A program made the translations under genes and the position numbers. The notes below the pieces were generated by a model. It was not told the origin of the DNA. It made no database searches and saw nothing but the letters and a program-made list of their open reading frames with translations. A stretch of DNA of 64,000 bases from Bacteroidetes Order II. bacterium (GTDB lineage Bacteria; Bacteroidota; Rhodothermia; Rhodothermales; UBA2364). The stretch's first letter is position 1; every line of letters begins with the position of its first letter. Below, piece by piece: positions 55,403 through 57,972 of the stretch. The stretch spans positions 1-64,000 of the forward strand of contig JAEUSQ010000051.1 in NCBI GenBank assembly GCA_016788705.1, written 5' to 3'.

Positions 55403-56617
55403 TTAGCGACAAGTTTCGCTAACCACTTTTCCATTCACAAAAACGGTGCAAACATGGGTGGTGTATTCAAATGGGTCTCCATCAAACAAGACCACATCTG
55501 CGTCTTTTCCAACTTCAAGCGATCCGATGCGTTGGTCTAATCCCAAGATTTTGGCTGGATATATCGTGATGGCGGCCAAGGCTTTCTCGAAAGGTAAGCC
55601 ATATGCAGCAGCCACGCCAGCCTCAAAGAGTACCACACGGGTTTTGGGGACATAGCCCTCGAAACCACTTTGGAGTGAAAAGGGAATCCCCGCTTCATTC
55701 AGGATTTTAGCAGTCTCGAACGTTAGGTTTTCGCTTTCTCCGGCGGCACGTTTCATGGTTGGATGAAGGATTACCTCGGCTCCACTGGCCTTGATCTCGT
55801 CTATGACCAGATATGCTTCGGAAACACTGTCTAAGACTAACTTAAGGTTAAATTCCTTCGCTATACGTATGGCTGCCTGAATGTCGTGGGCGCGATCTAC
55901 GGTGATAAGTGCTTTTATTTCCCCACGGAGCAATTGAACCAGGGTCTCCATTTTTAGATCACGCTCTGGACGTTTTGATAGCTCGGCCTGCTCCATTTTA
56001 CGAAGGTATGTTTGTGCCTTAAGCAATTCTTGACGCAATAAAGCCAACGCTTTGGACCGCGTACCTGGGGTCTTGAAGCCACTGTTGATCCCTGCACCCA
56101 ATGTGATGGCAAGCATGGCAGAAGCGTCTATTACCGCTTCTTGGACGTTGTTGCCAACCGTTTTGGCCACCAAGGTTTGACCAGAAATGAGGGCGCCCGG
56201 ACCATGGCCTGTATGGATCGTCGTAACCCCCATCGTCCGAAGGTATTCCACCAGAACTTCTCTTGGGTTGTAGGCATCTAAAGCACTGAGTTCTGGTGCC
56301 AGAGGAGATCCCGAAGTTTCTAATTGGTCTTGGTCATGTGGTTGATTGAGCGCACCAGCCAAACCCACCACCGAATGCCCGTCTATTAAACCGGGGGTAA
56401 TGACCTTGGCACTATATATTTGATACCCTTTGGGGATGGCTTTTTCTTTCGCCGGGCCCACCCACTCGATCTTACCCTCTTTCACCAAGACCAGCCCATT
56501 GGAAATAGAGGGTCCAGCAGCGGTATGCAGCATCTCGGCTTTAAGGGCATAGGTTTGTGCCATAAGGCTTGCTGGAAAAGACAACAAGGCCAGACACAAC
56601 GTAAAAAATTTGTTCAT
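55403..56617 (-). CDS. Amidohydrolase-like protein with degenerate metal site
   Basis: 404 residues, signal peptide MNKFFTLCLALLSFPASLMA. Same TIM-barrel and beta-sandwich frame as the upstream paralogue: TPGLIDGHSVVG, TTIHTGHGPGALISGQT, LGAGINSGFKTPGTR and final LGLDQRIGSLEVGKDADVVL. But the HxH metal pair is H81-S-V83, the later histidines of the paralogue (VHFHTHRAD, LQHVSEG) are ITVDRAHD and LDSVSEA here, so most metal ligands are gone. Probably not a metal hydrolase; perhaps a binding or structural partner. I recall close relatives in other Bacteroidota sharing the GHSVVG form, so the loss seems fixed and the gene not decaying. 41 bp after the active paralogue, likely one operon. Confidence 0.82.
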   Translation of the reverse strand: MNKFFTLCLALLSFPASLMAQTYALKAEMLHTAAGPSISNGLVLVKEGKIEWVGPAKEKAIPKGYQIYSAKVITPGLIDGHSVVGLAGALNQPHDQDQLETSGSPLAPELSALDAYNPREVLVEYLRTMGVTTIHTGHGPGALISGQTLVAKTVGNNVQEAVIDASAMLAITLGAGINSGFKTPGTRSKALALLRQELLKAQTYLRKMEQAELSKRPERDLKMETLVQLLRGEIKALITVDRAHDIQAAIRIAKEFNLKLVLDSVSEAYLVIDEIKASGAEVILHPTMKRAAGESENLTFETAKILNEAGIPFSLQSGFEGYVPKTRVVLFEAGVAAAYGLPFEKALAAITIYPAKILGLDQRIGSLEVGKDADVVLFDGDPFEYTTHVCTVFVNGKVVSETCR

Positions 56618-56658
56618 AAGGGATTGTTTTATAAAGAAGATAGAAATAATAGACGGTC

Positions 56659-57972
56659 TTATCGGTGGCCATCGTCTTCCCCATCATGATGGGTGTGAAC
56701 CACATCTCCGACCAATACGCCATAGGCTCCGTTAGCAAATTTTCGGTCTTCCGGATTGCTTAGGTCAAACACTATTTGACCTTCAATCCAAGTTTGTTCA
56801 ATTCGGGTGTAAACACTCATCGGGTCGCCACTAAGGACAATAAAATCTGCATCTTTACCCACTTCGAGTGTTCCAACCCGATGATCAAGCCCCAACATTT
56901 TGGCGCCAGCGAGGGTCAGGCTCTCAAGGGCTTTCTCCCGATTCAGTCCAGCCCGTATTCCTAAGGCCGCCGAGCGCAAAAAGAGGCGTGAATCGGTGAT
57001 GTAATCATCCGTATGATAGCCCATAAGCACACCTTCTTTAACCAAAGCCGCACCAGTGTCGAAGCGCAATTCCAGGGCCTCTAATTTTCCACCGGGCGAA
57101 TCTATTACAATGACCGATGCCGGAAATCCCGATGCCGCAATTTCTTTGGCCACCTTCCAGCCTTCACTCACGTGTTGTAGAACAGGTTTAAAGCCGAATT
57201 CCTGCCCAATTCGGATGGCGGTGAGGATGTCGTCTGCCCGATGGGTATGGAAGTGGACTGTACGTTTGCCCTCAAGGACTTGTACAAGCGCCTCCATCTG
57301 CAAGTCGCGTTCGGGCATTTTACTGGGGTCGCCAGCCGCTTCTTGCACCTTCCGTTGATAGTGTTGTGCTTTCAGGAACCACTGACGTGCCATTGCAGCA
57401 GACCGAGACCTGGTTCCGGGGAAGGTGCCATTATCGCGCATCGGATTGGTCCCATTGGCCATTTTCATGCCACCGCAAACTTCACTGAGCAAGTCTTTGC
57501 ATAATAAGAGATCCTGAATGGCCTTTCCTTTTCGCAATTTTAGATAAGCCGTTTGGCCAGAGAGCAAATGCCCCGATCCTGGCATCACGTTTACGGTGGT
57601 GATACCGCCCGCTCTGGCACGTCCTAAAGATGGGCTGAGGACGTTTAACGCATCCAGTACTCGTACATCTGGTTGGAGGGCAGCCGATCCATCTCCTCCG
57701 GCTGCTTCACCTACATGCGAGTGGGTGTCTATCAGGCCGGGCATCAGCATCTTTCCTGAAAGATCCACGCGCTGGGCATTAGGTGGAATGCGCACGGCAG
57801 AAGCCTTTCCAATGGCCAGAATCTTTCCCTGCTGAACCACCAAAACGCCTTGTTCGATGGGGGCGCCGGAAATAGGAAGCAAGGTTGCACCCGTGAAGGC
57901 AACCGGTGTTTCTTGTGCTGTCACCTGTCCAAAGCCCACCAACAGGCAAATGAGCATCCATTGTTTGATCAT
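56659..57972 (-). CDS. Amidohydrolase, secreted, with intact metal site
   Basis: 437 residues with signal peptide ending VTAQE. Metal-dependent hydrolase: HxH in MPGLIDTHSHVG (His84, His86), VHFHTHRADD, KPVLQHVSEG and YHTDDYITDSR at the four further ligand places, and the beta-sandwich end LGLDHRVGTLEVGKDADFIV. Family substrates are cyclic amides, dipeptides and nucleobases; not known here. Periplasmic or exported. First gene of a pair with the metal-site-poor paralogue; their shared length and order in both suggest a heterodimer. Confidence 0.9.
   Translation of the reverse strand: MIKQWMLICLLVGFGQVTAQETPVAFTGATLLPISGAPIEQGVLVVQQGKILAIGKASAVRIPPNAQRVDLSGKMLMPGLIDTHSHVGEAAGGDGSAALQPDVRVLDALNVLSPSLGRARAGGITTVNVMPGSGHLLSGQTAYLKLRKGKAIQDLLLCKDLLSEVCGGMKMANGTNPMRDNGTFPGTRSRSAAMARQWFLKAQHYQRKVQEAAGDPSKMPERDLQMEALVQVLEGKRTVHFHTHRADDILTAIRIGQEFGFKPVLQHVSEGWKVAKEIAASGFPASVIVIDSPGGKLEALELRFDTGAALVKEGVLMGYHTDDYITDSRLFLRSAALGIRAGLNREKALESLTLAGAKMLGLDHRVGTLEVGKDADFIVLSGDPMSVYTRIEQTWIEGQIVFDLSNPEDRKFANGAYGVLVGDVVHTHHDGEDDGHR

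Follow-up and report, generated by a model that had tools for sequence, protein, structure and literature searches.

A conserved amidohydrolase gene pair, with one member lacking the metal ligands, as a probable two-subunit hydrolase

Introduction

Two adjacent genes in the window (the 64,000-nucleotide stretch of DNA analysed here) raise the question of why an amidohydrolase with a complete metal site should be encoded directly before a homologue that has lost most of that site. An earlier note on this DNA had described the two genes as an enzyme and a pseudoenzyme and had remarked that such pairs often form heterodimers. Amidohydrolases are usually assigned and assayed singly, and automatic annotation gives the name 'amidohydrolase' to both partners, so that the pseudo subunit goes unnoticed; if such proteins are obligate heteromers, single-protein assays of the group may fail or mislead. 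Enzyme/pseudoenzyme partnerships are already a known kind, and the CRMP/dihydropyrimidinase-related proteins of animals are cytosolic, non-enzymatic amidohydrolase homologues that form heterotetramers. No description of an active/pseudo amidohydrolase pair occurring across phyla in separate and fused forms, and recurring in a sister cluster, was found in open-licence PubMed Central. The pair is an unusually clean case across many phyla, and its separate, overlapping and fused forms constitute natural experiments. We consider it likely that the two proteins, named here P1act and P1deg, form an obligate extracytoplasmic hetero-oligomeric hydrolase made up of an active and a pseudoenzyme subunit.

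The gene pair in the window

P1act is followed by P1deg on the minus strand, with exact coordinates given by ORF calls and translations:

56659..57972, minus strand: P1act, first gene of the pair (437 aa), predicted secreted amidohydrolase with a full metal site and the motif THSHVG
56618..56658, minus strand: intergenic gap of 41 bp between P1act and P1deg
55403..56617, minus strand: P1deg, second gene of the pair (404 aa), predicted secreted amidohydrolase-fold pseudoenzyme with the motif GHSVVG

In the pairs of relatives the genes overlap in 56 of 78 cases when the longest possible ORF start is taken, and by exactly 4 bp in 22 of the 78. Both proteins of the window begin with a hydrophobic, signal-like segment, in agreement with the earlier reading that the second copy had kept its signal peptide. 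Such a segment was observed in 125 of 140 P1act and 135 of 140 P1deg homologues, against 5 of 140 for a mid-protein control. The identity between the two members of a pair averages 34.5% (140 pairs). P1act passes the Pfam cut-offs of PF07969 (74.8 bits) and PF01979 (66.9 bits), and P1deg that of PF01979 (57.3 bits). Among the matches listed, neither protein reached the curated cut-off of an NCBIfam functional family, with imidazolonepropionase, guanine deaminase, Xaa-Pro dipeptidase and others covered; the best scores among these matches were 49.0 (cut-off 298) and 78.6 (cut-off 500).

Metal ligands and conserved residues of the two copies

The closest solved structure for both proteins is PDB 3ooq, an amidohydrolase of Thermotoga maritima related to each of them in sequence and fold over the whole length (sequence E values of 1e-68 for P1act and 7.9e-46 for P1deg). 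Alignment to this template revealed that P1act retains six of the six metal ligands (H84, H86, K170, H242, H267 and D322), encoded at the following positions:

57715..57723, minus strand: HSH motif of P1act (H84/H86); HSH in 137 of 140 homologues, the other three being truncated
57463..57465, minus strand: K170 of P1act, at the position of the strand-4 lysine ligand; 138 of 140 homologues, with two gaps
57241..57249, minus strand: H242-T-H244 of P1act, H242 aligning with the strand-5 ligand; 140 of 140 homologues
57172..57174, minus strand: H267 of P1act, strand-6 ligand; 139 of 140 homologues, with one Q
57004..57015, minus strand: HTDD of P1act, D322 aligning with the strand-8 ligand; it opens a conserved loop of low model confidence

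All six ligands were present in 135 of the 140 P1act homologues, each from a distinct pair, and the other five comprised four with alignment gaps in at least one ligand column and one with Q for histidine. This last protein (L101:77-1417) carries its substitution at the strand-6 ligand and is the sole such case among the 140. At another locus (L133:2904-4584), P1act is split into two open frames of 379 and 163 aa next to an intact P1deg, owing to a sequencing error or a broken gene.

At the same six positions P1deg has H81, V83, A, T, S and G. One of the six ligands is thus retained, against six of six upstream, and the earlier statement that the downstream copy has HSV for HSH and has lost most of the later ligands was borne out. 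Two segments of P1deg are of interest here:

56369..56377, minus strand: HSV (H81-S82-V83) of P1deg, replacing HSH (from translation and alignment)
55637..55654, minus strand: YVPKTR (residues 322-327) of P1deg, a pseudo-specific conserved loop after strand 8, found in 24 of 24 relatives

Among 140 P1deg homologues, no ligand was retained in 54 and a single one in 86, this being always the first histidine of HxH. The first position is occupied by H in 86 proteins and R in 52, with two gaps, and the second by V in 96 and T in 32. The HSV motif (GHSVVG), by which the earlier note labelled the ligand-less copies, therefore describes P1deg itself but not the family. Judged from these alignments, P1deg is an amidohydrolase homologue by descent and is predicted not to be a canonical metal hydrolase.

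The degenerate copy carries conserved residues of its own. In P1deg, YVPKTR stands where the active copy has HTDDxITDSR, and E320 together with Y322-V-P-K-T-R327 was invariant in 24 relatives obtained by full-length protein search, whose rows were not picked by the YVPKTR motif. Among the 140 homologues, conservation is 96% or higher at each of H138, H285 and R290. For YVPKTR, conservation in this larger set is biased by its being in part motif-scanned, 80 loci having been found in a genome scan with two P1deg peptide patterns, one of which included YVPKT; the adjacency counts given below are unaffected.

These residues bear on whether P1deg may be alive as a second enzyme of the same pathway, its pocket housing a catalytic or metal site that has moved or is of another kind; a relocated metal site is the other outcome that the earlier note named as contrary to its reading. 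Eight polar residues of its own are highly conserved (D95, H138, H285, R290, E320, Y322, K325 and R327), and in its structural model most of these residues lie in loops after barrel strands, the substrate-binding face of amidohydrolases (D95 after strand E77-82, H138 after E131-137, H285 after E281-284 and E320 after E313-315). However, at most one of the six canonical positions is retained in any homologue, the residues that substitute the later ligands vary rather little (A, T, G/S and G), and the obligate pairing and the fusions described below point to a subunit and not to a free enzyme. A hidden activity of this type is in our opinion improbable.

Structural models and the loop after strand 8

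The AF2 model of P1act had a mean pLDDT of 86.8 and a TM score to 3ooq of 0.91 (target-normalised), and that of P1deg a mean pLDDT of 91.9 and a VIA Z of 51.7 to 3ooq, with an rmsd of 1.7 over 375 residues. In both partners, model confidence within the mature domain is lowest in the conserved loop after strand 8: mean pLDDT in the single-chain models fell to 63 for residues 321-330 of P1deg, and to 61 for residues 321-330 and 59 for residues 291-300 of P1act. The low-confidence stretches of both proteins contain residues that 97% or more of the relatives share. An inter-subunit loop would be expected to be both highly conserved and poorly placed when the chain is modelled alone, although this combination is not proof of one.

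The template itself differs from the pair in having complete ligands in a single kind of chain (10 chains of one sequence), so the fold needs no second subunit in general. No paper on the function of 3ooq was found in open-licence PubMed Central under its presumed locus name. The next-best structural matches were prolidases and carboxypeptidases of COG1228 (PDB 3feq, 3n2c and 3mtw; Z of about 26), which belong to the same superfamily but show about 20% identity and bear the ligands; among the matches listed, no pseudo partner is mentioned for them.

Pairing across genomes

When named bacterial genomes were scanned with the alignment of P1deg, 80 loci with this gene were obtained. By their record titles they belong to Bacteroidetes, Rhodothermales, Balneolaceae, Chitinophagaceae, Calditrichaeota, Ignavibacteria, Chlorobi, Acidobacteria, Gemmatimonadetes, Planctomycetota and verrucomicrobial groups (Opitutales, Pedosphaera); Geothrix limicola and a Pontibacter are cultured carriers among them. 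P1act was located directly upstream on the same strand in 78 of the 80 loci, and in the remaining two the start of P1deg lies no more than about 235 bases from where the locus stops at the edge of a contig. Altogether, 155 loci were examined, 154 of them with P1deg; removal of nine duplicates and of five loci without a full P1act (L053, L061, L067, L121 and L143, in which the upstream sequence was short or split by a contig end) left 140 distinct pairs. In 140 of 140, P1deg is directly downstream of P1act, in the same strand and order, which answers in the affirmative the question of the earlier note whether ligand-less copies always sit beside HSH copies.

Whole genome sets of three phyla were then considered. 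In Bacteroidota (394 genomes), 87 places in 86 genomes carry P1deg and 88 places in 87 genomes carry P1act, with 85 pairs adjacent on one strand; the non-adjacent cases were a pair split by a contig end (G007), a P1act cut at a contig end (G166) and a hybrid gene (G231). In Acidobacteriota (199 genomes), P1act was present in 30 genomes and had an adjacent P1deg in 30 of 30: 23 P1deg genes were found by search, all adjacent by coordinates, and seven more on inspection of the loci. These seven P1act genes had been taken as solitary, a reading rejected when P1deg was seen directly downstream in 7 of 7; its seeming absence was due to a fast and limited first look. The Planctomycetota set (199 genomes of the phylum to which G418 belongs) gave 37 P1act matches, or 36 after removal of one better read as another pair type (G665), and these consisted of 30 pairs adjacent by coordinates, five fused and one cut by a contig end. 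Three genomes of this phylum considered as devoid of P1deg were rejected as such, one being fused, one cut by a contig end and one of the other pair type.

Apart from contig edges and the one hybrid, none of the genomes of these three phyla that carry one partner was shown to be without the other. Copies often apart, the outcome named in the earlier note as contrary to a partnership, did not appear: no separated pair was seen at the genome level in the three phyla. The presence of the pair is patchy inside orders, which implies that P1act and P1deg are gained or lost jointly. The two genes have their nearest neighbour in common in 46 of 76 loci across phyla (shuffled mean 1.0, maximum 7), which shows co-inheritance and not contact. 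The mirror-tree correlation between P1act and P1deg (r of 0.868, 21 genomes) gives the pair no support beyond shared descent, since it is not above the values of P1act with the sister-cluster genes described below (0.834-0.890).

Besides the pair, no third gene family recurs in most of the 155 loci. The next neighbour cluster was found in 28 loci and, judged by its first member, seems to consist mainly of overlapping-frame ORFs; the others are few or local. The genomic context therefore gives no substrate.

Fused and hybrid forms

In five Planctomycetota genomes, the pair is a single open frame of 833-928 aa with the active half N-terminal and the pseudo half C-terminal. The ligand set of the N-terminal half is intact, and the C-terminal half matches P1deg and has lost at least five of the six ligands. 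Each of these natural proteins links an active and a pseudo member of the P1act/P1deg family covalently, and the fusions, which go beyond what the earlier note had considered, further support the partnership.

The one real exception to pairing is a Bacteroidota genome (G231, L178:5052-6278) with a single hybrid gene of 408 aa, whose N-terminal half is active-like and whose C-terminal half is pseudo-like. Its ligands are mixed (HSHKHRGE), and the gene looks like a deletion via recombination between tandem copies.

A sister cluster and a third pair type

On contig 53 of the genome from which the window comes (L068:3148-8032), three amidohydrolase genes stand in a row, forming the sister cluster C2: C2A (pseudo), C2B (active) and C2C (pseudo). 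C2A, of 593 aa, was read as pseudo from the alignment, and many of its relatives have an extra C-terminal segment. In 29 relatives from the order, the ligands of C2B are complete in 29 of 29, and C2C has G for the first HxH histidine, also in 29 of 29. Among 168 Bacteroidota genomes, C2B was present in 94 and C2C in 93 by search, to which one genome (G096) was added on inspection of the locus, giving 94 of 94; one genome running into unknown bases (G065) and three with low-score P1 genes (G060, G119 and G132) were excluded from these counts. The occurrence of the sister cluster in 94 of the 168 sampled genomes indicates that this class of proteins is common.

The C2B frame is at least 983 aa long in 52 of the 94 genomes, a length threshold that alone is no proof of fusion. 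Where long frames were examined by domain (14 complete ones and that of G065), 15 of 15 had a C2A-like N-terminal half and C2B as the C-terminal half. A C2A-C2B fusion also occurs in Pontibacter, and in one Planctomycetota genome C2B is fused to C2C instead. In ten genomes both C2B and C2C are present with C2C on another contig or far from C2B, four of them confirmed as loci. At L231/L232, L233/L234, L235/L236 and L237/L238, a fused C2A-C2B and C2C are both present but far apart or on different contigs. Retention of C2B and C2C when apart argues against simple linkage as the cause of their co-retention.

A third type of active/pseudo pair, akin to the sister cluster yet distinct from it, was found in four places (L096:3361-6471, L213:1271-4155, L253 and L254), belonging to Gemmatimonadetes (by record title), to a relative of the window's order and to Planctomycetota.

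Adjacency, and even fusion, can mean co-function without contact. P1deg could then belong to the pathway of P1act and never touch it, for instance as a periplasmic protein that binds, or serves as a decoy for, the substrate or product of P1act, and a conserved pocket devoid of catalytic ligands in proteins that both appear secreted would fit such a role. Against it stand the active/pseudo fusions of P1 in five genomes, those of the sister cluster in both orders, and the finding that neither a transporter nor any other third gene recurs in most loci. We regard this explanation as quite unlikely.

Origin and selection

In a tree of 41 sequences, built after removal of the ligand columns and their neighbouring columns, one branch parts all active copies and 3ooq from all pseudo copies (bootstrap 99, SH-aLRT 97); this tree is unrooted. 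A larger quick tree, also unrooted and with long outgroup branches, gave the same grouping with a support of 81 for the pseudo group. Provided that the root falls within the active copies, the ligands would have been lost once, before P1, C2 and the third type separated.

In comparison with a congener, dN/dS was 0.062 for P1deg and 0.065 for P1act, and 0.099 and 0.093 for the neighbouring genes gcvT and nadC, respectively. The constraint on P1deg is about equal to that on P1act, which is not chance but purifying selection, and the earlier suggestion that the intact frame reflects selection agrees with this value and with the conservation of P1deg across phyla. The opposite explanation is that P1deg is a neutral by-product, a degenerate tandem copy maintained by linkage; tandem paralogues are common, and neutral decay would first give ligand loss. 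This explanation is very hard to reconcile with the low dN/dS, the intact frames, orthologues that are 54-61% identical across phyla and sister-cluster partners co-retained where linkage is broken, and we give it almost no weight.

Proposed function of the pair

In the two-subunit hydrolase that we favour, P1act would hold the metal centre and perform the chemistry. Most likely it would use its metals to hydrolyse an amide bond, either in a small peptide or in an N-acyl amino acid. These substrates are taken as a first guess, since carboxypeptidases and prolidases are the closest structural relatives that have been characterised. P1deg, as an obligate subunit of the same fold, would have arisen once, long ago, by duplication followed by loss of the metal ligands, and would make the subunit interface. 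Its conserved loops probably stabilise, shape or regulate the active site of P1act, at whose rim they may form a conserved edge.

A wider reading, which we hold to be somewhat less likely than not, covers all three pair types. The pseudo and active lines would have split a single time, and an ancestral heteromer would have given rise to P1, to the three-domain C2 (one active and two pseudo domains) and to the third type. The ExYVPKTR loop of the pseudo subunit might then complete or gate the site of its partner in trans, with the heteromer as the catalytic unit.

The nearest parallel comes from dihydroorotases. According to one study (PMC4581275), Pseudomonas needs an inactive dihydroorotase to assemble its aspartate transcarbamoylase, and fungal CAD-like proteins contain an inactive dihydroorotase-like domain. 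The inactive dihydroorotase is, like P1deg, a ligand-poor protein of the amidohydrolase fold; it is retained as a structural partner, as a separate protein in bacteria and in fused form in fungi. P1deg does not form an assembly of this ATCase type, its partner being no transcarbamoylase: the inactive dihydroorotase is joined to a protein of another fold, whereas P1deg is paired with an active paralogue of its own family.
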